Source of the DNA: Sphaerisporangium sp. TRM90804
GTDB taxonomy: Bacteria; Actinomycetota; Actinomycetes; Streptosporangiales; Streptosporangiaceae
Length of the DNA: 64,000 bases
Assembly: GCF_029846175.1 (NCBI RefSeq)
Contig: NZ_JARWAC010000027.1
Location: 1 to 64,000, forward strand
Direction: 5' to 3'
Made by a program: the position numbers and the translations under genes
Shown here: positions 26,520 through 36,882 of the stretch, one piece after another
Layout of the letters: every line of letters begins with the position of its first letter
How positions within the stretch are numbered: position 1 is the stretch's first letter
The notes under the pieces: generated by a model
The model's database searches: none
Told to the model about the DNA's origin: nothing
Seen by the model: only the letters and a program-made list of their open reading frames with translations

Positions 26520-27575
26520 ATGGTGATGGCGACACGGGACGCCGCCGGGCTGCGGGAGCTGGTCGATCAACGCCTCGGCGAGCTGCTGGAGCAGGAGATG
26601 GACCGGCTGTCCTTCCTGGGCCGGGACGGCCAGGACACCTTGCGCCGCCACCTGGCGGACTTCGTCCGCGATGGCGGCAAGCGGCTGCGGCCCCGCTTCG
26701 TGTACTGGGGGCACCGGGCCGCCGGCGGCTCCCCAGACGACCAGGACGCCGTGCTCGCGGCCGGCTGCGCGGTCGAGCTGCTGCACGCGGGCGCGATGAT
26801 CCTCGACGACGTGATGGACGAGGCGGGCACCCGGCGCGGCCGGGAGACCGCCCACCTGGCCCTGGCCGGACGCCACCGGCGGCTCGGCTGGTGGGGCGAC
26901 CCCGGCAGGTTCGGGGAGTCCATGGCGACCCTGTTCGGAATCCTGGCCTTCACCTGGGCCGACGCCGCCCTGCTGGGCGCCGGCCCCCGGCTGGCCGAGG
27001 CGCTGGAGGTGTTCACCCGGCTCCGGGTGGAGATCATCGGCGGCCAGTACCTCGACGTCGCCTACGCCGCCCGCGGCGCCGGGGGCGCCGAGGAGGCCAC
27101 CCGCGTCGCCACCTACAAGTCCGGCAAGTACACCGTCGAGCGCCCGCTGCACCTGGGCCACGCCATCGCCGGAGGCGACCCCGGGCTGCGCGCCGTCCTG
27201 AGCGCCTACGCGCTGCCGCTGGGTGAGGCGTTCCAGCTCCGCGACGACGTCCTCGGCGTGTTCGGCGACCCGGCGCTCACCGGCAAGCCCGCCGGAGCCG
27301 ACCTGCGCCAGGGCAAGCGCACCTACCTGACGGCCAAGGCCCGCCAGCACGCGGACGCGTACGGCGCGGCCCTGCTCGACAACGTCCGCGACGAGGCCGA
27401 CGTGGCCGCGGCCCGCGAGCTGATCGTCGCCACCGGCGCCCTGGACGCCGTCGAACGCCGCATCTCCCTGCTGGCCGCCTCGGCGGTGGACGCGCTGGAC
27501 GGCACCGGCATCCCGCCGGACGCCAGGGCCGCGCTCGCCGACCTCGCGGACGCGGCGACCGGCAGGACCGCCTGA
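26520..27575 (+). CDS. crtE: Geranylgeranyl diphosphate synthase (polyprenyl synthetase)
   Basis: 351 residues. The first aspartate-rich motif is 'MILDDVMDEAGTRRGR' (DDxxD) and the second is 'FQLRDDVLGVFGD'. Other family marks are 'DGGKRLRPRFVYWG', 'GGQYLDV' and the lysine loop 'YKSGKYTVERPLHLG'. It condenses IPP with allylic diphosphates to the C20 precursor of phytoene. ATG 26520 (reading ATGGTGATG) has AAAGGAG eight bases upstream. It is first in crtE-crtI-crtB; its stop overlaps a 30-codon bridging ORF as TGATG. Confidence 0.93.
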   Translation: MVMATRDAAGLRELVDQRLGELLEQEMDRLSFLGRDGQDTLRRHLADFVRDGGKRLRPRFVYWGHRAAGGSPDDQDAVLAAGCAVELLHAGAMILDDVMDEAGTRRGRETAHLALAGRHRRLGWWGDPGRFGESMATLFGILAFTWADAALLGAGPRLAEALEVFTRLRVEIIGGQYLDVAYAARGAGGAEEATRVATYKSGKYTVERPLHLGHAIAGGDPGLRAVLSAYALPLGEAFQLRDDVLGVFGDPALTGKPAGADLRQGKRTYLTAKARQHADAYGAALLDNVRDEADVAAARELIVATGALDAVERRISLLAASAVDALDGTGIPPDARAALADLADAATGRTA

Positions 27576-27667
27576 TGGCCGCCCCGGCGCCCGGCGCCGC
27601 CGTCCCCGCGGACGCTATGGCCGCGCCCGGCGGCCCCTCGGGCGTGGCCACCGGCGGGCACGCGTGA
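27575..27667 (+). CDS. 30-residue bridging ORF between crtE and crtI
   Basis: Its ATG (27575-27577) overlaps the crtE stop as TGATG, and its TGA (27665-27667) overlaps the crtI GTG start as GTGA. The Ala/Gly/Pro-rich peptide has no recognisable motif. crtI has no ribosome site of its own, so this ORF may carry ribosomes across the gap by termination-reinitiation. A similar ORF bridges crtI and crtB. It may be a coupling device with no functional peptide; translation is not proven. Confidence 0.4.
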   Translation: MAAPAPGAAVPADAMAAPGGPSGVATGGHA

Positions 27668-29136
27668 CGCCCGCCGCCCGACCGGTCGTGGTGATCGGGG
27701 CGGGGCTCGCGGGGCTGGCCGCGGCGATCCGCCTGGCGTCGGCCGGGCGTGACGTGGTGGTGGTTGAGGCGCGTGACGTGCAGGGCGGCTGCTGCGGCAC
27801 GGCGAACCTCGGGCCCTACCGCTTCGACACCGGGCCGTCGGTCCTCACCATGCCCGAGGTGCTGGCCGAGACCTTCGGCGCGGCGGGGGAGGACCTGGAG
27901 AGCGTGCTCCCGCTGCGACGGCTGGACCCGTACTACCGGCTCGCCTACCACGACGGCTCCCGGCTGGACGTCGTGGCGGGGGAGGAGGCGATGACCGAGC
28001 GGGTGCGGCTGCTGTGCGGCGACGCCGAGGCCGAGCGGTACCGCCGCTTCCGCCGGCACCTGGGCAGGATGTTCGCGGTCGAGTGGCCGGCGTTCATCGA
28101 CAGGGACATGACCCGCCTGCGCGCCCTGGCGCGGCCGTACGCCCTGGGCCGGCTGGCCGCGCTGGGCGGCTTCCGGCGGCTCGACTCGCTGGTCAGAAGC
28201 CACCTCAGCGACGAGCGGCTGGTCAGGGCGCACACCTTCCAGGCGCTGTACGTCGGCATGCCTCCGCGGCGGGCGCTGGGCATCTACGCCGCGGTGGCGT
28301 ACATGGACACCGTCGGCGGCGTCTTCTTCCCGCGCGACGGCGGCATGCACGCCGTGCCGCGCGCGATGGCGGCGGTCGCCGAGAAGGCGGGCGCCGTCAT
28401 CCGGTACGGGGTGCGGGCGACCCGGGTCGAGACGGACACCTCCGGCGTGTCGGCCGTCCGGCTGGACACCGGGGAGCGCCTGACCGCGGGCGACGTCGTG
28501 GTGGCGTGCGACCTGCCGCGCGCCCACGCCGGGCTGCTGCCCGCCGGGGCCGGGGACTGGCGGCTGCGCCGCCCCCGCTACTCGCCGTCATGCCTGGTGC
28601 TGCACTTCGGCCTCGACCGGCGCCCGGCCGGCCAGGCCCACCACACGCTGCACATCGGCGAGCAGTGGGCGTCCACGTTCGACGCCCTCGCCGCGGGCCG
28701 GCCGCAGCCCGACCCCAGCCTCCTGGTCACCTGCCCCGGCCAGGACACCAGCGCGGCGCCTCCGGGGCACGCCACGCTGACCGTGCTGGAGCCGACCGCC
28801 AACACCGCCGGCGGCGCCGACTGGGACCGGCTGACCCCGGAGCTGGTGGAGCGGCTGCTCGGACGCCTGGCCGCGCTGGGCTACGGCGACCTGTCGGCGG
28901 CCCCCCGGCTCACCCTGGACCCGCCGGCCTGGGAGCGCATGGGGCACTCGGCCGGCACCCCGTTCGCCCTCGACCACCGGTTCACCCAGACGGCCTGGTT
29001 CCGCCCGGCGGGCCGCGCCGGACGCGTCCCAGGCCTGCACTTCGCCGGCATGTACACCGCGCCGGGCGTCGGGGTGCCGCCGGTCATCATCTCCGGCCGC
29101 CTGGCCGCCGAGCGCATCCTGGAGACCCGCCGATGA
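27664..29136 (+). CDS. crtI: Phytoene desaturase (CrtI family)
   Basis: 490 residues. N-terminal FAD motif 'VVVIGAGLAGLAAAIRLA', the following 'VVEARDVQGGCCGT', 'YRFDTGPSVLTMPEVL' and the C-terminal FAD-contact 'FAGMYTAPGVGVPPVIISGR' are all CrtI features. 'YVGMPPRRALGIYAAVAYMD' and 'GVFFPRDGGMHAVPRAM' match the central substrate domain. It would dehydrogenate phytoene stepwise, probably to lycopene; the number of steps cannot be read from sequence. The start is GTG 27664, inside the stop of a bridging mini-ORF and without a Shine-Dalgarno sequence. Confidence 0.93.
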   Translation: MTPAARPVVVIGAGLAGLAAAIRLASAGRDVVVVEARDVQGGCCGTANLGPYRFDTGPSVLTMPEVLAETFGAAGEDLESVLPLRRLDPYYRLAYHDGSRLDVVAGEEAMTERVRLLCGDAEAERYRRFRRHLGRMFAVEWPAFIDRDMTRLRALARPYALGRLAALGGFRRLDSLVRSHLSDERLVRAHTFQALYVGMPPRRALGIYAAVAYMDTVGGVFFPRDGGMHAVPRAMAAVAEKAGAVIRYGVRATRVETDTSGVSAVRLDTGERLTAGDVVVACDLPRAHAGLLPAGAGDWRLRRPRYSPSCLVLHFGLDRRPAGQAHHTLHIGEQWASTFDALAAGRPQPDPSLLVTCPGQDTSAAPPGHATLTVLEPTANTAGGADWDRLTPELVERLLGRLAALGYGDLSAAPRLTLDPPAWERMGHSAGTPFALDHRFTQTAWFRPAGRAGRVPGLHFAGMYTAPGVGVPPVIISGRLAAERILETRR

Positions 29137-29225
29137 CGCCCACCACAGCCCGCCGACCTCGCCGCCCGCACGGCCGTCCCCGCAGGCCCGACGCCCCCGG
29201 ACACGACGGGCGGGCCCGGCGATGA
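29133..29225 (+). CDS. 30-residue bridging ORF between crtI and crtB
   Basis: ATG 29133-29135 overlaps the crtI stop (ATGA), and its TGA 29223-29225 overlaps the crtB ATG (ATGA). The product is Arg/Pro-rich with no motif. crtB lacks a clear ribosome site, consistent with translational coupling through this ORF. It is the same length as the crtE-crtI bridge although the sequences are unrelated. Confidence 0.4.
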   Translation: MTPTTARRPRRPHGRPRRPDAPGHDGRARR

Positions 29226-30121
29226 CGCTGACCGCCAGCTACGAGCGCTGCCGCATGCTCAACGCCAAGCACGGCCGCTCCTACTACCTGGCCACCCTGC
29301 TGCTCCCGGCGTGGAAGCGGCGGCACGTGCACGCCCTGTACGGGTTCGCCCGCTACGCCGACGAGATCGTCGACTCCTTCGACATGACCTCCGACCGGGG
29401 GGCGGCGCTGGAGGCGCTGGCCGGACGGCTCGCAGCCGCGCTGGACGGCGCGCCGGTGGACGACCCGGTGCTCCCGGCGTTCGCGCACACCGTGCGCTCC
29501 TTCGGCGTCGACCCGGCCGACGTCATGGCGTTCATGGAGTCGATGCGCGCCGACCTGTCGGTGACCCGCTACGCGACCTACGAGGACCTGCTCGGCTACA
29601 TGGAGGGCTCGGCCGCCGTCATCGGCACGATGATGCTCCCGGTGCTCGAAGCGCTGCCCGGCGCCGCCGCGCGTGCCCGCGAGCCCGCGCGCCAGCTCGG
29701 GCTGGCGTTCCAGCTCACCAACTTCCTGCGCGACGTGGGCGAGGACCTGGCGCGCGGCCGGGTCTACCTGCCGATGGAGGACCTGGAGAAGTTCGGCGTC
29801 GAGGTGGACGACCTCGGGGCGGCGAGCGCCGGCCAGGCCGTACGCGACCTGGTGGCCTTCGAGGCGGGCCGCGCCCGCGACCACTACCGGCAGGCGCTGG
29901 CGGGCGTCGACCTGCTCGTCCCCTCGTCGCGGCCGTGCATCCGCGCCTCCTACGACCTGTACGGCGGGATCCTGGACGAGATCGAGGGCGCCGGCCACGA
30001 CGTGCTGGCCGCCCGCGCGCGTGTTCCGCGCCGCCGCCGGCTGGCGATCTTCGCGCGCCACCTGGCGGCGGCCTCCGCGGCCGGCAGGGACGAACGCCGC
30101 GTCACCGTCCCGGTGCCGTGA
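29222..30121 (+). CDS. crtB: Phytoene synthase
   Basis: 299 residues. The two aspartate-rich motifs of squalene/phytoene synthases are 'YADEIVDSFD' (DxxxD, about 42-51) and 'NFLRDVGEDLARGRVYLP' (about 165-182). Other signatures are 'HGRSYYLATLLLPAWKRR' near the start and 'YMEGSAAVIGTMMLPVLEAL'. It joins two GGPP molecules to phytoene in two steps. The start overlaps the bridging ORF; the stop forms GTGA with an in-frame GTG at 30118 that could begin plsX. It is third in the crt operon. Confidence 0.95.
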   Translation: MTLTASYERCRMLNAKHGRSYYLATLLLPAWKRRHVHALYGFARYADEIVDSFDMTSDRGAALEALAGRLAAALDGAPVDDPVLPAFAHTVRSFGVDPADVMAFMESMRADLSVTRYATYEDLLGYMEGSAAVIGTMMLPVLEALPGAAARAREPARQLGLAFQLTNFLRDVGEDLARGRVYLPMEDLEKFGVEVDDLGAASAGQAVRDLVAFEAGRARDHYRQALAGVDLLVPSSRPCIRASYDLYGGILDEIEGAGHDVLAARARVPRRRRLAIFARHLAAASAAGRDERRVTVPVP

Positions 30122-30162
30122 GGCGGGAAGACCCGCCGGCGGAGCCGCCGGGGAGGACAGTG

Positions 30163-31191
30163 ATGGGCAAGCCCGTTGTCGTCGACGCGATGGGTGGGGA
30201 TCACGGACCGGCCGAGGCCGTGCGCGGCGCCGTCGCGGCGTGGCGGGAGCACGGCGTGCCGGTGCTGCTCGCCGGCCGGGCCGGCGTCGTGCGCCGCGAG
30301 CTGGCCAGGCACGACGCCGCCGGGGAGATCGGCGTGGTGCACGCCGAGGACGTCGTCCCCATGACCGAGCGCGGCTCCGGGGTTGGGAGCGAGGGCTCCA
30401 GCCTCGCGGTGGGCTGCCGGCTCGTCCGGGACGGCGCGGGCGCGGCGTTCGTCTCGGCGGGCTCGACCGGCGCGGTCGTCACGTGCGCGGTCCGGCTGCT
30501 CGGCCGGGCCGCGGGCGTGCTGCGCCCCGCCCTGGCTGTGGCCCTGCCCACGGCCGCCGGGGGCTCCGCAGTCCTGGTCGACGCGGGCGCCACCTCCGAC
30601 CCGACCCCCGAGATGGTCGCGCAGTTCGCGCTGCTCGGAGCCTTCTACGCCCGGCTCGTGCTCGGCGTCGCCGACCCCTCGGTGGGTCTGCTGTCCATCG
30701 GCTCCGAGCCCGGCAAGGGCAACCGGCTCACCCGCCGGGCCGAGGAGCTGCTGTCGGCCGCCTCGCTCTCCTCGGGGGACGGGCTCGCGCGGGATGACGG
30801 GCCCGGGGCGCCGCCCTGGCCGCCGTTCCGCTTCCACGGCAACGTCGAGGGGCACGACGTGCTGGCGGGCACGGTCGACGTGATCGCCACCGACGGGTTC
30901 ACCGGCAACGTCGTGCTGAAGAACGTCGAAGGCTCCGTCCGGGCCACGCTGGCCCTGGTCGCGGCGGCCGGGATCGCCGCGCCCGAGCGGCTGCGCGAGG
31001 TCGCCCGGCTCTACGACCCGCGCACGCACGGCGGCGCGGCCCTGCTCGGCCTGAACGGCACCGTCGTCGTGGCGCACGGCTCCTCCCGCGCCGGAACCAT
31101 AGCCCGGGCCTGCGTGGTGGCCCGCGACCTGGCGGAGGGCGGGGTCGTGAGCCGCATCCGCCCGCACCTCACCGCCGAGCCCGCCACGTGA
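30163..31191 (+). CDS. plsX: PlsX-like phosphate acyltransferase within the carotenoid operon
   Basis: 342 residues, usual PlsX length. Signatures: 'VVVDAMGGDHGPAEAVRGAV' at the start, 'FVSAGSTGAVVTCAV', 'LVDAGATSDPTPEMVAQFAL' and 'VIATDGFTGNVVLKNVEG'. PlsX makes acyl-phosphate from acyl-ACP, the donor used by PlsY. ATG 30163 has GGGAGG six bases upstream; an in-frame GTG at 30118 overlaps the crtB stop and could be used. The usual housekeeping neighbours (rpmF, fabD, rnc) are absent, and the gene follows crtB with a plsY-like gene close by. A role in acylating a carotenoid glycoside is inferred; an additional phospholipid role is not excluded. Confidence 0.87.
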   Translation: MGKPVVVDAMGGDHGPAEAVRGAVAAWREHGVPVLLAGRAGVVRRELARHDAAGEIGVVHAEDVVPMTERGSGVGSEGSSLAVGCRLVRDGAGAAFVSAGSTGAVVTCAVRLLGRAAGVLRPALAVALPTAAGGSAVLVDAGATSDPTPEMVAQFALLGAFYARLVLGVADPSVGLLSIGSEPGKGNRLTRRAEELLSAASLSSGDGLARDDGPGAPPWPPFRFHGNVEGHDVLAGTVDVIATDGFTGNVVLKNVEGSVRATLALVAAAGIAAPERLREVARLYDPRTHGGAALLGLNGTVVVAHGSSRAGTIARACVVARDLAEGGVVSRIRPHLTAEPAT

Positions 31192-31223
31192 GCCCATCGG
31201 CCGCGACGGCGGCGGGGCCGGGC

Positions 31224-31943
31224 TCAGGCGAGCGGGTCGGCGCCGTCCCAGCCGCCCTCGCTGCCGTAGGGGACGAACCGGGCGAACAGCTCCTCGGAGT
31301 ACCAGCCCTCGCGCCGCACGCGGCCGATCACCTCGCGGTGCCCGGGACGCTTGTAGGCGAACGACCGCACCGCGTCCGCGTCGCGCCACAGCGAGAACGT
31401 CGCCTGCCTGGCCAGCGGCCACTCGCCGATGCCGACCGACGCCAGGCAGCCGTCCTGCGCCCGCAGGTCGAGGTCCACGGCCGGGACCGCACGGTAGAAC
31501 GCGGGCAGCCGGCTCAGCCGGATGGACGCCCGCGTCAGCACCGCCACCGGCCCCCCGGCCGCCACCGGAGGGACGGCTCCGCCCGCGAACCCGGCCCCTT
31601 CGAAGGGGTCGACGCCGTTCCAGCGGCCCCGGGAGGCCACGGGCGCCAGCCGCACGTGCCAGGACTCCCGCGCCCGGGACCGCCAGCGGGCGGCGATCGG
31701 CGAGTCGCGCAGGAACGCCTCCAGCGCGCGCTCGTCGCGCCAGACCGCCAGCAGCGCCCAGCGGCGCAGGTCGGCTCCCAGGGACATGGACGTCCCCCGG
31801 CCCGTGCCCAGCAGGCGCGAGAACAGCAGCCCGCCGGTGCCGCGCAGCACCGGCCGGTCGTAGGCCATGTACCGCATGCCACCGCGGTCCGGATACCTGA
31901 TGAGGTGAAACGAAGCGATGGTTCCCGTGCTCGTCGCGGTCAT
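31224..31943 (-). CDS. crtA: CrtA-like (spheroidene monooxygenase family) carotenoid oxygenase
   Basis: 239 residues. The family's hallmark is the C-terminal '[20 protein letters not shown]' and '[10 protein letters not shown]', with N-terminal '[20 protein letters not shown]' and '[17 protein letters not shown]'. CrtA introduces keto groups at C-2 of acyclic carotenoids using O2 and a heme. The start ATG 31943 puts the first 26 bases over the start of plsY on the other strand; a later start would remove conserved residues. It is convergent with plsX, 32 bp apart. Keto or hydroxy specificity cannot be read. Confidence 0.85.
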
Positions 31944-32613
31944 CGGCGGCTACCTGCTCGGCTCGGTGCCGGTCGCGGTGCTGGTCGCCAGGACGCACGG
32001 CTTCGACCCGCGTGACGTCGGCGACCGCAACCCCGGCTTCTGGAACATGAGGCGACGGCTGGGCGGGCGGCCGGCCGTCCCGGTGTTCGCGGGCGACCTC
32101 CTCAAGGGAACCCTGGCCGGGCTGCTCGGCCTGCTGGTCAGCGGCGCCCACACCGCCGGCCTCGCCGTCACCGCGCCCGGGGGCGTGGCCGCGGGCGGCG
32201 TCCTGCCCGAGCACATGATGGTCGGCGCGGGCCTGCTGCCCCTGTACGGGACGGTGGCCGGGGACAGCGTGGTGCCGGTGTACGCGGCGGTGGCGGCGGC
32301 GATGGCCGGGCACGCCTGGCCGGTGTTCGCCGGGTTCAGGGGCGGCCGGTCCATCCTCGCGTTCGCCGGCGGCGTCGCGGTGATCTGCCCGCCCGGGTTC
32401 CTGCTGGCCGTCGGCCTGCTGGTCGTCACGGCCCTGGCCGCCCGGTCGTTCGCGGTCGGGGCGCGGGTGGGCGTGTTCGCCGTGCCCGTCCTGCAGCTGC
32501 TGTTCGTCCCGGTGCTCCAGGTGGCCGCGACCGGCCTGCTGATGTGCCTCATCGGGCTGCGTTTCGGGCAGGCGGCGCTGGCCGGTCGCCGTCCCGGGCG
32601 GGCCGGGCCGTGA
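31918..32613 (+). CDS. plsY: PlsY-like acyl-phosphate acyltransferase, divergent motifs
   Basis: 231 residues, about six membrane segments. '[19 protein letters not shown]' and '[17 protein letters not shown]' match PlsY, and '[20 protein letters not shown]' corresponds to the third motif 'GHxFPVFxxFKGGKGVAT'. Two signature loops depart from the family: '[11 protein letters not shown]' replaces 'GSGNxGATN', and 'GGRSI' replaces 'GGKGV'. PlsY moves the acyl group of acyl-phosphate to glycerol-3-phosphate; the changes, and the position among carotenoid genes next to plsX and a glycosyltransferase, suggest another acceptor. Its 3' end overlaps the glycosyltransferase gene by 65 bp on the opposite strand. 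Confidence 0.85.
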
Positions 32614-33949
32614 CGGGCGGGCAGCCGCCGTCGAGCCCGGCGCGCGGCGGCGCCAGGCGGGCGGCGGTCGTGTCCAGCGTCTCGTAGGTGCGGCCGCGCC
32701 AGGTGCGGGCCGGGCGCAGGGTCGCGTAGGTCAGGCGCAGGGCCGTCAGCGGGTCGAGCAGGGGGGACAGCGGCAGGCCGGGCCCCGGGCGGGTGTAGCT
32801 GGCCCGCAGGGCGGCGGTCAGCAGGAACCGGGTGCCGAGCAGCCCGAGGTCGAGCCGTGTCGGGCGTCCGGCCGCCAGCCGCAGCACGGGGAGGGCGGCG
32901 GCCAGCCAGAGCACCGCCAGGTCGCCCGCCTGCCACAGGCGGCCGGTGACGTCCCTGAGGTGCAGGGTGCGGCCCCACTCGCGCCAGACCTCGGCCGTGG
33001 AGTCGTGCATGTCCACCTCCAGCAGGTCGCCGGCGTCGACGAAGCGCACCGCCCAGCCTCGCCCGGCCAGCGCCCGGGCGAGCGCCACGTCGTCGGTGAG
33101 GTGGCCGCGCACCCGCGCGAAGCCGTCGGCGGCCCGCATCGCTCCGCGCCGGAACGCCATGCACTGCCCGTTGGCCACCACCCGGTGCGGGGGCGGCGGC
33201 ACCGGCGAGCCGATCGGGCCGAACCGGTAGACCAGCGTCGCGAGGAACGAGGCGTGCAGCGCCTGTTCGACCGGCCCGCCGGTGGCGAACCTCGGCCCCG
33301 CGCTCAGCAGGTCGCAGCCGTCCAGCTCCGCCGCCATCGCGCCGAACAGCCCGGGCCGGGGGCGGGTGTCGGCGTCCAGCGTGACGACCACGTCGCCGCG
33401 CGCCTCCGCGAGCCCCTGGTGGAGCGCCCACTGCTTGCCGACCCAGCCGGCGGGCAGCGGCCGGCCCGCCACGACCCTCGCCCCCAGCTCCGCCGCCACC
33501 CGCGCCGTCCCGTCGGCGGACTCGTCGTCCACCACCAGCACCTCACCCACCGAGGGATCGGCGAGCGCCGCCGCCACACAGGGCCCGATGCGGTGCTCCT
33601 CGTCCCGCGCCGGAATCACCACCGAGATCGTCCGCGAACGCGCGCCCCCCCACGCCGCTCCGACCGGCGCGGCCGGGCCGGTCGTCCAGGGCTCGATGCC
33701 CTGCCCGGTCCGGGCACTCACGTCCAGGGCCGGCTCGGGGCCGCCGCCCGCCGGAAGGGGCTCGGCGGTCAGGGCGGGCTCGGCGCGGTGCCGCTCCTCC
33801 CGGGCCGTGGTCATGGCCGGGGCGGTCCCGGGGCCGGGGTCGGCGGGGGCGCGTAGCGGGGCGCGGCGGCCGCGGCCGCGCGCCAGGCGGGTCAGCACGG
33901 CCAGGGCGGCCACGGCCTGGGCGGCGGTGAGGATCGTCGACGGCTTCAT
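32549..33949 (-). CDS. Family-2 glycosyltransferase, probable carotenoid glycosyltransferase (CruG-like)
   Basis: 466 residues. A short N-terminal hydrophobic stretch and a Pro/Ala-rich linker precede the GT2 domain (about 105-330): 'ISVVIPARDEEHRIGPCVAA', 'VLVVDDESADGT', the DxD 'VVTLDADTRPRP', and 'VRGHLTDDVALARALAGRGW' with acidic catalytic residues. The last part (340-430) has two or three membrane segments. GT2 enzymes of this kind sit with cruF in carotenoid clusters and glycosylate 1'- or 2'-hydroxyl groups. Its ATG overlaps the stop of the desaturase gene (ATGA). The sugar donor is unknown. Confidence 0.88.
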   Translation of the reverse strand: MKPSTILTAAQAVAALAVLTRLARGRGRRAPLRAPADPGPGTAPAMTTAREERHRAEPALTAEPLPAGGGPEPALDVSARTGQGIEPWTTGPAAPVGAAWGGARSRTISVVIPARDEEHRIGPCVAAALADPSVGEVLVVDDESADGTARVAAELGARVVAGRPLPAGWVGKQWALHQGLAEARGDVVVTLDADTRPRPGLFGAMAAELDGCDLLSAGPRFATGGPVEQALHASFLATLVYRFGPIGSPVPPPPHRVVANGQCMAFRRGAMRAADGFARVRGHLTDDVALARALAGRGWAVRFVDAGDLLEVDMHDSTAEVWREWGRTLHLRDVTGRLWQAGDLAVLWLAAALPVLRLAAGRPTRLDLGLLGTRFLLTAALRASYTRPGPGLPLSPLLDPLTALRLTYATLRPARTWRGRTYETLDTTAARLAPPRAGLDGGCPPVTARPARDGDRPAPPARNAAR

Positions 33950-35424
33950 CGGGCGTGGCTCCTCGGCCCGGGCGCCGCCTGGCTCGGCCCGCCCGTCGTG
34001 GGGAAGTCGTCCTCGACCAGGGAGGCGACGATGCGCCCGCCCATCGTCACCAGGGGCAGGCCGCCGCCGGGATGCGACGAGCCGCCCACCAGGTACAGGC
34101 CCCGGCGGGGGCCGCGGTTGCCCGGACGGCGGAACGGGGCCAGCGCGCCCCGGTAGGGCGTGCCGTAGATCGCGCCGCCCCAGGCGTCGTAACGCTCGCG
34201 CAGGTCGGCGGGGGTGATCATGTCGACGAACCGCAGCCGTCCCGCCAGGTCGTGGCCGCGGGAGGCCAGGCGTTCGAGCACCAGGTCCCGGTAGGCCTCG
34301 GGGGAGATCGGCCATCGGGCGGGGTCGACGGCGGGGACGTTGACCAGCATGACCCAGTTCTCGGCGCCGTCCGGGGCCTGTGTGGGGTCGTCGACGGCCG
34401 AGCAGCCGACGTAGACGGTCGGGTCCTCGGGCGGGCGCCGCCGGTCGAAGATGTCGGCGAACTCCCGCTCGTAGTCGGCGGAGAAGACGACGGAATGGTG
34501 CGGCAGACCTTCGGTCCGCCCCTCCACCCCCGCCAGCAGCAGGAACGCCGAGGACGACCGGCCGAGCCCCGCGATCCTGCGCAGCCGCCGCCGGTCGGGC
34601 AGCAGCCGCCCGTACAGCGCCGCCGCGTCGCCGTTCACCACCACGGCGTCCGCCCGCGCCTCCTCCCCGGAGGCGAGCCGCACGCCGGACACCCGGTCGC
34701 GGCCGGCGAGCACGCCGGTCACCTCGGCGCCGAGGTGGACCTCCACGCCGGCCTCCTCCAGCAGGACGGCGAGCGCGTCGGCGACGCGGGGCAGCCCGCC
34801 CCGCACGTACCAGCCGCCGTCGCCGTGCTCGATCGCCGGTATGCATCCCAGCGCCGCCGGCGCCTGGTAGGGGCTGGACCCGGCGTAGGTGGCGTAGCGG
34901 CCGACGTACTGGCGCAGGCGGTCGTCCGTGAAGTAGCGGCGCGCCAGCCCGTCGAGCGTCCGCCCGGGCGCCACGGCGAGCAGGTCGGACAGTCCCGCGT
35001 CGCCCGGCCGCCGGGCGAGCGGCCCGGTGAAGAACGTTCGCCGCGACGCCTCCAGGCACCCCCGGGCCCAGTCGTAGAACCCCATCCAGTTGCGCCCCTC
35101 ACCGGGCGCGAGCCGCTCCACCGCCTCGGCCATGCGCCCCGGCTCCCGGTGCGCGGCCAGCTCCGACCCGTCCGCGAACCGGTAGCGGCAGATCTCGTCC
35201 AGCTCAAGGAGATCCAGCTTCACCCCCAGCTCCCCGAACAGGTCGGGAAGCGTGAGCAGCGAAGGCCCGATCGAGAACGTGAACCCGTCCCGCCGCTCCT
35301 CCGCCAGCTTCCCCCCAAGCCGGCCGAGCCGCTCATAGACCCGCACCTCATGCCCACCCCGAGCCAGCAGAAGAGCACAAACCATGCCCCCCACCCCACC
35401 CCCGACCACAACCACCTCAGCCAC
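33946..35424 (-). CDS. CrtI-family carotenoid desaturase/oxygenase, second copy (CrtD-like)
   Basis: 492 residues. FAD motif 'VVVVGGGVGGMVCALLLARG', then 'VYERLGRLGGKLAEERRDGF' and 'FSIGPSLLTLPDLFGEL'; C-terminal 'LVGGSSHPGGGLPLVTMGGR'. The His-Pro-Gly-Gly-Gly tail is closer to CrtD/CrtN/CrtO-type enzymes than that of the CrtI at 27664-29136, suggesting action on lycopene or hydroxylated intermediates, such as 3,4-desaturation after CruF hydration. I start at GTG 35424, where the conserved motif begins; the open frame continues into the 147-bp repeat array, which I regard as non-coding. Coupled to the glycosyltransferase gene by ATGA. Confidence 0.88.
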   Translation of the reverse strand: MAEVVVVGGGVGGMVCALLLARGGHEVRVYERLGRLGGKLAEERRDGFTFSIGPSLLTLPDLFGELGVKLDLLELDEICRYRFADGSELAAHREPGRMAEAVERLAPGEGRNWMGFYDWARGCLEASRRTFFTGPLARRPGDAGLSDLLAVAPGRTLDGLARRYFTDDRLRQYVGRYATYAGSSPYQAPAALGCIPAIEHGDGGWYVRGGLPRVADALAVLLEEAGVEVHLGAEVTGVLAGRDRVSGVRLASGEEARADAVVVNGDAAALYGRLLPDRRRLRRIAGLGRSSSAFLLLAGVEGRTEGLPHHSVVFSADYEREFADIFDRRRPPEDPTVYVGCSAVDDPTQAPDGAENWVMLVNVPAVDPARWPISPEAYRDLVLERLASRGHDLAGRLRFVDMITPADLRERYDAWGGAIYGTPYRGALAPFRRPGNRGPRRGLYLVGGSSHPGGGLPLVTMGGRIVASLVEDDFPTTGGPSQAAPGPRSHAR

Positions 35425-35522
35425 GGGACACCCCCAGCGAAGCCACGCCGCCACCCCCATGCCGACCGAGGACATCCCTCCGGACCCCGCCCCCCGACTC
35501 GCCACCCCGCACGAGGTCGCCC

Positions 35523-35935
35523 CCCTCTCCCGCCGCTCCGGCCCCCCGCCCCTCCGGCGCCGGTAGGGCGAGTCGGTGGTGCGGCGAAGCCGGCGCCGCC
35601 GTACGGCGCCCGGCTCGGAGCACCGGGCCTTGTGGGGACGGTGCCCCGCCACGAGCGTGGTGCGGCCGGCCCTCTCCCGCCGCTCGGGCCCCCCGCCTCT
35701 CCGGCGCCGGTAGGGCGAGTCCGTGGTGCGGCGAAGCCGGCGCCGCCGTACGGCGCCCGGCTCGGAGCACCGGGACTTGTGGGGACGGTGCCCCGCCACG
35801 AGCGTGGTGCGGCCGGCCCTCTCCCGCCGCTCCGGCCCCCCGCCCCTCCGGCGCCGGTAGGGCGAGTCCGTGGTGCGGCGAAGCCGGCGCCGCCGTACGG
35901 CACCCGGCCCGGAACACCGGGCCTTGTGGGGCCGG
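35523..35935. repeat. Tandem array of a 147-bp repeat, 2.8 copies
   Basis: Copies begin at 35523, 35670 and 35817 (each at CCCTCTCC), with the landmark CGGTAGGGCGAGTC at 35561, 35708 and 35855. Sequence identity is very high; differences are scattered single bases. 147 is divisible by 3, so all six frames stay open and long fictitious ORFs arise. It fills the 522-bp gap (35425-35946) between cruF and the second desaturase, both on the minus strand. Confidence 0.95.
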
Positions 35936-35946
35936 GCGGGGGGTGG

Positions 35947-36882
35947 TCAGGATGTCCATCGGCGTCTCCAGGCGAGGAAGGCGAGGGTGCCCATGCAGGC
36001 GCCGCCGGCGGTGGCGACGAGGGGGTCGGGCGGGGTGAACACCGCGGCGAAGCCGATCGTCTCCATGACCGCCATTACCGTGTAGAGGGCGACCAGGCCG
36101 GGGGCGGCGTGGCCGGGGTTGGTGAGGATCTTGCCGATCAGTGCCATGACCAGGACGGACACCAGGAGCCAGCCGGCGAAGTTGCTGACGGGCACTCCCC
36201 GGTAGGGGCCGGGTTCGGCCCAGGCCCACAGGCCCAGGCGGATCATCTGCGGGTCGAGGAACAGGTCCCACGAGGTGAGGGCGAGCGCGCCCACCACGAT
36301 CCGGGACGTCGTACCGCGCGCCACCGCGGAGGCGACCGCGTAGGACGCGAGGCCCATGCCGCCCCAGGCCACGGCCACGATCACCGGGACGCCGCCGAGC
36401 TCGGGCCACAGCAGGCCGGTGTACCGGTACTCGCCGAACGGGAAGCCCGTCCGGATGCCGACCCATTCAGCGGCATACCCGACGACCACCGTCCCGGCGA
36501 ACGCCGCCACAGCCCTGGGCGAGGTGTGCGCCGCGGCCGCGTAGGCCACGGCCGCCGCGGCCAGCAGGAGCACCACGACGCTGGTGAGCCGCACCGGCGC
36601 GGGCTCAAGCCCGGAGAGCACCTGCGCGACGATCATGGCGCCCAGCGCCACCGTGCCCGCGACCAGGAACGCCCGGCGCGCGGCGGGGGCGCGCACACGG
36701 CCGACCGGCCCGGGGGCCGGCGCACCGTCCGCCGTCCTTGGGGCGCGCACACGGCCCGCCGTCCCGGACTCCGGCATACGGCCCGCCGTGCCGGACTCCG
36801 GCGCACGGCCCGCCGTGCCGGGAGTCGGCCGGGTCAGGGGCGGCCGGCCCGGGCGGGACCGATCATCGGTGGCGTCTTCCAC
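35947..36882 (-). CDS. cruF: Carotenoid 1,2-hydratase CruF family membrane protein
   Basis: 311 residues. The last 240 contain about seven membrane helices and the CruF marks 'GYAAEWVGIRTGFPFGEYRY', 'ALTSWDLFLDPQMIRLGLWA' and 'YRGVPVSNFAGWLLV'. CruF adds water to the psi end of acyclic carotenoids to give a 1'-hydroxyl group. The N-terminal 65 residues are low-complexity with a repeated 'PESGTAGR' unit and are probably cytoplasmic and disordered. GTG 36882 has GAAGG upstream; a later start at the first helix cannot be excluded. It is the first gene of the minus-strand half of the carotenoid cluster. Confidence 0.9.
   Translation of the reverse strand: MEDATDDRSRPGRPPLTRPTPGTAGRAPESGTAGRMPESGTAGRVRAPRTADGAPAPGPVGRVRAPAARRAFLVAGTVALGAMIVAQVLSGLEPAPVRLTSVVVLLLAAAAVAYAAAAHTSPRAVAAFAGTVVVGYAAEWVGIRTGFPFGEYRYTGLLWPELGGVPVIVAVAWGGMGLASYAVASAVARGTTSRIVVGALALTSWDLFLDPQMIRLGLWAWAEPGPYRGVPVSNFAGWLLVSVLVMALIGKILTNPGHAAPGLVALYTVMAVMETIGFAAVFTPPDPLVATAGGACMGTLAFLAWRRRWTS

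Follow-up and report, generated by a model that had tools for sequence, protein, structure and literature searches.

Why should two genes of the phospholipid pathway, plsX and plsY, lie inside a bacterial carotenoid cluster? The question is raised by positions 26520–36882 of the window, the 64,000-nucleotide stretch of Sphaerisporangium sp. TRM90804 DNA that we analysed (actinobacterial source genome of 8.3 Mb in 86 contigs). The original prediction was that a nine-gene carotenoid cluster here uses its own PlsX/PlsY pair for acyl-phosphate-dependent carotenoid acylation. All nine genes were found in place, each matched by Pfam and/or NCBIfam models (Table 1). Judging from comparative sequence analysis, the cluster probably makes a hydroxylated acyclic carotenoid, attaches a sugar to it and finally adds a fatty acyl group through PlsX/PlsY, which would stand in for CruD or CrtO. 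Among the nine cluster proteins, PlsX and PlsY gave the only acyltransferase matches; an acyltransferase of another family (CruD/CrtO type) was not matched by Pfam at E ≤ 0.001.

The window PlsY is a member of the PlsY family (PF02660, 94.8 bits against a gathering score of 24.1). With the equivalog model TIGR00023 for glycerol-3-phosphate (G3P) 1-O-acyltransferase PlsY it scored 71.7 bits, under the cut-off of 137.2. The PlsY membrane fold was recovered in an AF2 model of the protein (pLDDT 82.5, pTM 0.79), for which the PlsY structure 5xj7 was the top Foldseek match (E = 1.1e-4). A VIA structure comparison aligned 180 residues of the model with 5xj7 (Z 17.0, root mean square deviation 3.5), and the next non-PlsY entry reached Z 6.3. 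Foldseek and VIA rows ranked under those for PlsY appear to be fortuitous alignments of helices.

To describe the active site, we used the solved Aquifex PlsY (5XJ5–5XJ9) as reference and for residue numbering. In PlsY, the phosphate of G3P is contacted by S35, R45, K104 and N180 and its 2-OH by S142 and H177; the acyl-phosphate is contacted by H92, T41 and the backbone of residues 104–107, the T41 hydroxyl holding the carbonyl (Li et al. 2017, PMC5700162). Scanning 84,980 species genomes with a subfamily alignment yielded 121 confirmed relatives, of which the best 80 were kept as named loci (L106–L185). Alignment A2 comprised the window protein and 44 of these 80; L162 and L167 were excluded because the given range crossed a stop codon. 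The canonical PlsY set (n = 15) consisted of 14 of the 17 class loci L017–L033 (without L021, L024 and L032) and the family locus L039.

The G3P-contacting residues proved to be replaced throughout the relatives. D35, R104 and F177 were present in 80/80 and A180 in 79/79 (one gap), and position 45 was E in 68, Q in six, D in three, R in two and G in one. The window PlsY itself has D35, R104, F177 and A180 and retains R45. Canonical PlsYs, by comparison, have S35, R45, H177 and N180 in 15/15 and K104 in 14/15. Replacement of S142 by A or T in 78/80 relatives carries little weight, since A142 also occurs in 5/15 canonical proteins. Single substitutions of this kind left the Aquifex enzyme with residual activities of 0.32% (H177F), 4.6% (N180A), 1.1% (R45A) and 25% (K104R) (PMC5700162). 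Among 7,288 PlsY homologues, D35, R104 and F177 were reported at 2.7%, 2.6% and 1.0%, respectively; divergent PlsY branches are thus already counted in PMC5700162, with no function attached to them in that section. The two deviating loops named in the original prediction, GDRNPGFWN and GGRSI, are both real, and the change goes further, with a C-terminal RFGQA for RHxxN. On these residues, the window PlsY is predicted not to be an ordinary G3P acyltransferase, its G3P pocket appearing dismantled.

Other parts of the site are strictly kept. H92, G102, G103, N37, N42 and K62 were found in 80/80 relatives, and D59 is invariant too; because the loop-3 glycines, N37, N42, D59 and K62 do not vary, PlsY appears to be selected as an enzyme-like site. 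On the donor side, T41 is W and G105 is S or C in 80/80. T41W and the many pocket changes might be taken to mean that acyltransferase activity has been lost and that the protein serves as a membrane scaffold, a carotenoid-binding protein or an acyl-phosphatase, as one substitution alone is enough to impair the Aquifex PlsY severely (PMC5700162). We consider such a loss improbable, given that H92, N37, N42, K62 and the glycine pair are invariant in 80/80 and that a dedicated PlsX is retained, with motifs common to the housekeeping copy.

We then asked how tightly plsY is tied to the carotenoid genes. In a family survey of 297 genomes, 88 had a PF02660 match and 209 had none. Three of the 88 were set aside as another branch: L039 of G479 is canonical, and the loci fetched from G453 and G482 had no match to window proteins. 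At L100 (G453:C110:9449-11276), two adjacent PF02660 matches lie in a fetched 20 kb with no match to window proteins. The remaining 85 plsY-branch genomes all have a strong CrtA match on the same contig, within 107 bp of the plsY match (85/85). Strong CrtA matches occur in 91 family genomes, six of them without plsY; three weak CrtA matches (G455, G535 and G591) were dropped from these counts.

Among the 80 named loci, CrtA and a glycosyltransferase (GT) flank plsY in every case, and a cluster plsX is present in 70, some loci being cut by contig ends (e.g., L184). The loci span Sphaerisporangium, Planobispora, Planomonospora, Planotetraspora, Nonomuraea, Microbispora, Streptosporangium, Thermoactinospora, Actinomadura, Actinocorallia, Thermomonospora and two Acidimicrobiia. 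Because the same gene order recurs across so many genera, it is not a product of chance. The six plsY-less CrtA clusters have plsX in 0/6 and a GT in 5/6. By eye, no candidate replacement acyltransferase was seen among the coding-like open reading frames (ORFs) of four of these six clusters; no family scan was made. The distribution is nested: CrtA, CrtD and CruF are the most widespread, followed by the GT, then plsY and finally the cluster plsX. Such nesting would be expected if the sugar were added before the acyl group and PlsX supplied PlsY, and is suggestive but not proof. In particular, a GT in 80/80 plsY-bearing loci and in 5/6 clusters lacking plsY is as expected if acylation follows glycosylation. 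Separately, the cluster at L187 (G442) is rearranged and lacks GT, plsY and plsX, which makes it a candidate natural source of a non-glycosylated pigment.

The same distribution bears on the acceptor. PlsY could use acyl-phosphate on another acceptor of the pathway: a hydroxyl of the carotenoid itself, or else a later substrate of the GT (a sugar donor or a glycolipid). Free hydroxyls would come from CruF and the CrtA-like enzyme, and linkage and pocket changes settle only that G3P is an unlikely acceptor. We nevertheless regard these other acceptors as unlikely, since plsY occurs with a GT in all the named loci, GTs occur without plsY, and the acylated carotenoid glycosides in print have the acyl group on the sugar (PMC5822342; PMC2615216, where it is a proposal of the authors). 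The carotenoid glycoside is therefore kept as the most likely acceptor.

The partner PlsX is also distinct. The cluster protein exceeds the PF02504 gathering score (242 vs 29.1 bits), narrowly misses the cut-off of the PlsX equivalog TIGR00182 (239.0 vs 243.4 bits) and matches the solved PlsX 1vi1 (E = 1.3e-51). In an unrooted tree of a sample of each, cluster PlsX (26 rows) and housekeeping PlsX (21 rows) were separated by one branch with support of 100/100. Both share the conserved stretches MGGD, SAG-T, EG-D, DGFTGN and AHG-S. At least two PlsX matches were found genome-wide in 76/85 plsY-bearing genomes versus 8/212 others (Fisher values are tiny but ignore relatedness). These counts are search matches, some possibly gene pieces, and the second PlsX was not confirmed as the cluster copy in every genome. 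The six CrtA genomes lacking plsY have one PlsX match each. Family-wide, at least one PlsX match is present in 292/297 genomes, as against a PF02660 PlsY in only 88.

T41W, together with the plsX-less clusters, deeper ones included, would also fit a donor other than acyl-phosphate, either acyl-acyl carrier protein (acyl-ACP) or acyl-coenzyme A, with plsX serving another purpose. This seems very improbable: plsX and plsY co-occur, plsX is missing from all six clusters that lack plsY, and the PlsX of the 292 family genomes could supply plsX-less clusters there (the genome-wide PlsX search covered the family). Acyl-phosphate thus remains the preferred donor. Collectively, the changed G3P pocket, the retained H92 and glycine pair, the linkage to CrtA in every plsY-branch genome and the joint absence of plsX and plsY in 6/6 clusters support carotenoid acylation.

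To see whether this holds outside the class, we searched 396 genomes of the phylum (E ≤ 1e-12). Five genomes outside the class gave strong PlsY matches (125–208 bits), and the next match reached only 89 bits. All five adjoin CrtA, with GT, crtD and cruF in the same locus. D35, W41, E45, F177 and H92 are present in 5/5 of these copies and N180 in 0/5. Four of the five genomes (G793, G678, G753 and G721) have a further PlsY with GSGN and GGKG loops away from crt genes; the fetched stretches around the other PlsY copies, 7–13 kb, contained no match to the crt genes of the window. In G761, no second PlsY match was found at this threshold. G678 and G753 each have a third, more divergent copy (L260 and L261), and these third copies are nearest to the carotenoid PlsYs in the tree. 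There, one branch separates carotenoid PlsYs (20 rows) from 22 other PlsYs with support of 100/99 (unrooted, bootstrap not fully settled). Where a relative has a canonical PlsY as well, it is the altered copy that lies in the carotenoid cluster. No plsX match was found in the five deeper clusters or in the two Acidimicrobiia loci, for which reason PlsX recruitment looks confined to the family of the window.

We think it rather likely that a PlsY branch in more than one Actinomycetota class has left phospholipid synthesis and become an acyl-phosphate O-acyltransferase acting on a non-phosphorylated lipid sugar, with D35 and usually E45 replacing the clamp and with its own PlsX recruited in one lineage.

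The original prediction called for a check on whether a second, canonical plsX/plsY exists in the genome. The plsX half stood, with a second copy at G000:C28:55783-56733 (322 bits); the plsY half did not, no second plsY being found in the genome at E ≤ 0.001. The second plsX lies directly upstream of an ORF that, by eye, resembles an arginyl-tRNA synthetase. A sole plsY is not diagnostic, because 209/297 family genomes are without any PF02660 match. Other G3P acyltransferase families were also sought in the genome of the window. The E. coli-type PlsB C-terminal domain PF19277 was not found, in a search that detected 1/14 controls (E. coli). PF01553 gave five matches, three in frames of 245–255 amino acids, which we take to be PlsC-size, and two in frames of 639 and 878 amino acids (starts not resolved). 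The window PlsY is the sole PF02660 match and retains the PlsY fold, as would be expected of an ordinary G3P acyltransferase pair that lies in a carotenoid cluster by chance and feeds phospholipid synthesis. That explanation has very little probability in our view, because the family largely lacks PF02660, the G3P-contact residues are replaced in the relatives and a separate canonical-loop PlsY exists in 4/5 deeper genomes.

Several observations weigh against carotenoid acylation by PlsX/PlsY. The genome of the window is without a second PlsY, and the PF19277 and PF01553 searches singled out no housekeeping G3P acyltransferase in it. The window PlsY still has R45, and K104 is retained in 2/5 deeper copies (L254 and L256). 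With T41W in every relative, the donor site appears altered too. Ten of the 80 named plsY-bearing loci (one of them, L184, contig-cut) and the five deeper clusters show no plsX. Finally, the C-terminal changes fall within, or on the border of, the part of plsY shared with the GT gene, and the opposite strand could explain part of their conservation; in the deeper copies, where the flanking sequence is different, F177 is present and N180 absent too.

A pathway can be proposed in which CrtE, CrtB and CrtI would make lycopene, CruF would hydrate and CrtD desaturate the ψ end, and the CrtA-like enzyme would oxidise C-2 to a 2-keto or 2-hydroxy group. The CruG-like GT2 would then attach a sugar. 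The cluster PlsX would convert acyl-ACP to acyl-phosphate, from which the membrane PlsY, its G3P phosphate clamp replaced, would transfer the acyl group to a hydroxyl on the carotenoid glycoside, itself embedded in the membrane. Gene families, pocket substitutions, linkage and joint absence were observed directly; for the single carotenoid steps we rely on what these families are known to do. The acyl transfer, its donor, its acceptor (most likely the glycoside) and the acylated product are our inference. Overall, comparative evidence supports the acyl-phosphate-dependent acylation put forward in the original prediction, while acceptor, donor and the acyl group on the pigment still stand as predicted features.

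The backbone is predicted to be acyclic, as no convincing lycopene cyclase was found (the CrtYe/f type lay outside the search). The lycopene cyclase model PF05834 gave seven partial matches in the genome of the window, four at or above the cut-off of 23.4, the best with 31.3 bits over positions 1–146 of 380. We read them as general FAD-binding folds, because the same search matched 10/14 controls, E. coli included. CrtA relatives are described as 2-ketolases or 2-hydroxylases (PMC11855829).

In the cluster, crtE, crtI, crtB and plsX are consecutive on the forward strand, crtA, GT2, crtD and cruF lie on the reverse strand, and plsY is on the forward strand between crtA and GT2. Across the named loci, the 5′ end of plsY overlaps the opposite-strand crtA in 73 of 77 readable loci (nearest start codon taken), by exactly 26 bp in 42, and its 3′ end overlaps the opposite-strand GT in 78/80, most commonly by 50 bp. 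The interleaved half-operons of 31224–33949 suggest a non-contiguous operon with antisense coupling. In both Acidimicrobiia loci (L183, 10012–13200; L185, 11614–14901), a long β-galactosidase-like ORF (by eye) lies between GT and crtD and perhaps acts on the carotenoid sugar.

Table 1 Genes of the carotenoid cluster in the window and sites within plsY (Aquifex numbering for substitutions).
Feature	Position	Strand	Evidence
crtE, polyprenyl (geranylgeranyl) diphosphate synthase	26520..27575	+	PF00348 (polyprenyl_synt) 149.9 bits, scanned from 26523; ATG at 26520
crtI, phytoene desaturase family	27664..29136	+	Pfam Amino_oxidase; TIGR02734 409 bits, above cut-off 238.1
crtB, squalene/phytoene synthase family	29222..30121	+	PF00494 (SQS_PSY) 252.8 bits; NCBIfam models all under cut-offs, HpnD best with 204.5 bits
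plsX paralogue, acyl-ACP:phosphate transacylase family	30163..31191	+	starts 41 bp past crtB; PF02504 (FA_synthesis) 242 bits
crtA-like, carotenoid 2-ketolase/2-hydroxylase	31224..31943	-	NF045923 spheroidene monooxygenase 164 bits, under cut-off 300; no Pfam match above cut-off, DUF3291 narrowly short (23.2 vs 23.5 bits)
plsY, carotenoid type; predicted acyl-phosphate:carotenoid-glycoside O-acyltransferase	31918..32613	+	PF02660 (G3P_acyltransf) 94.8 bits
plsY loop 1, GDRNPGFWN (canonical GSGNxGATN)	32020..32046	+	S35D, A40F, T41W
plsY acyl-phosphate histidine, kept	32311..32313	+	H132 = Aquifex H92; role from PMC5700162
plsY loop 3, GGRSI (canonical GGKGV)	32341..32355	+	K104R, G105S
plsY C-terminal RFGQA (canonical RHxxN)	32560..32574	+	H177F, N180A; inside stretch shared with GT gene
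GT2 glycosyltransferase, CruG-like	32549..33949	-	PF00535 72.4 bits; best NCBIfam model NF045692 CruG (carotenoid 2'-O-glycosyltransferase), 230 bits, cut-off 600
crtD-like carotenoid 3,4-desaturase, CrtI family	33946..35460 (start 35460 or 35475)	-	Amino_oxidase; TIGR02734 311 bits; NF045637 CrtD 308 bits, cut-off 580
cruF, carotenoid 1,2-hydratase family	35947..36882	-	PF04240 (Caroten_synth) 135.6 bits; TIGR03460 110 bits, cut-off 154.7

How does this system compare with known ones? With the PlsX/PlsY phospholipid pathway, as represented by Aquifex PlsY, it shares the protein families, the fold, the acyl-phosphate histidine and glycine pair and, in most clusters, a PlsX partner; it differs in that the G3P phosphate clamp and H177 are replaced, the genes are tied to a carotenoid cluster and the predicted acceptor is not G3P. 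In staphyloxanthin synthesis, CrtO fatty-acylates a carotenoid glycoside; this enzyme is unrelated to PlsY and is not known to depend on acyl-phosphate. No PlsY is known to acylate anything but G3P, and the carotenoid PlsY would be the first to do so. Among the open-access papers listed in our literature searches, none describes, by title or abstract start, a carotenoid cluster that contains PlsX or PlsY.

Of the pigments described so far, salinixanthin (PMC5822342) and the acylated oscillol diglycosides proposed for Thermomicrobium (PMC2615216) come nearest. For salinixanthin of Salinibacter and Rhodothermus, a GT (CruC) likewise adds a sugar that is then acylated (CruD), the enzymes having been assigned by homology (PMC5822342), whereas the acyltransferase here would be of the PlsY family. 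Thermomicrobium roseum offers the closest predicted product type, an acyclic, glycosylated and acylated pigment made without a cyclase, but the acylation step was attributed there to a hydroxylase, the CruF counterpart, that carries a fused acyltransferase domain (PMC2615216). On saponification, the hydrophobic acyl glycosides of Thermomicrobium are reported to converge on a single polar glycoside. The flavobacterial myxol/CrtA-OH pathway also combines CruF, CrtD and a CrtA-type enzyme in one cluster; it includes a lycopene cyclase, and the main text mentions neither an acyltransferase nor a glycosyltransferase (PMC11855829).

The G3P pocket of PlsY has been described as invariable, and PlsY inhibitors are sought as antimicrobials (PMC5700162). 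If our interpretation is true, a natural PlsY branch with a rebuilt pocket and a new acceptor shows how acceptor choice is coded, and acyl-phosphate chemistry is opened for making glycolipids and pigments. The carotenoid PlsY also provides a test of how often bacteria invented carotenoid acylation (CruD, CruF fusion, CrtO and PlsY). For annotation, a "PlsY" label in such genomes should not by default be read as a phospholipid enzyme. For the organisms themselves, the prediction is that Sphaerisporangium, Nonomuraea, Actinomadura, Microbispora and their relatives would contain acylated pigments.

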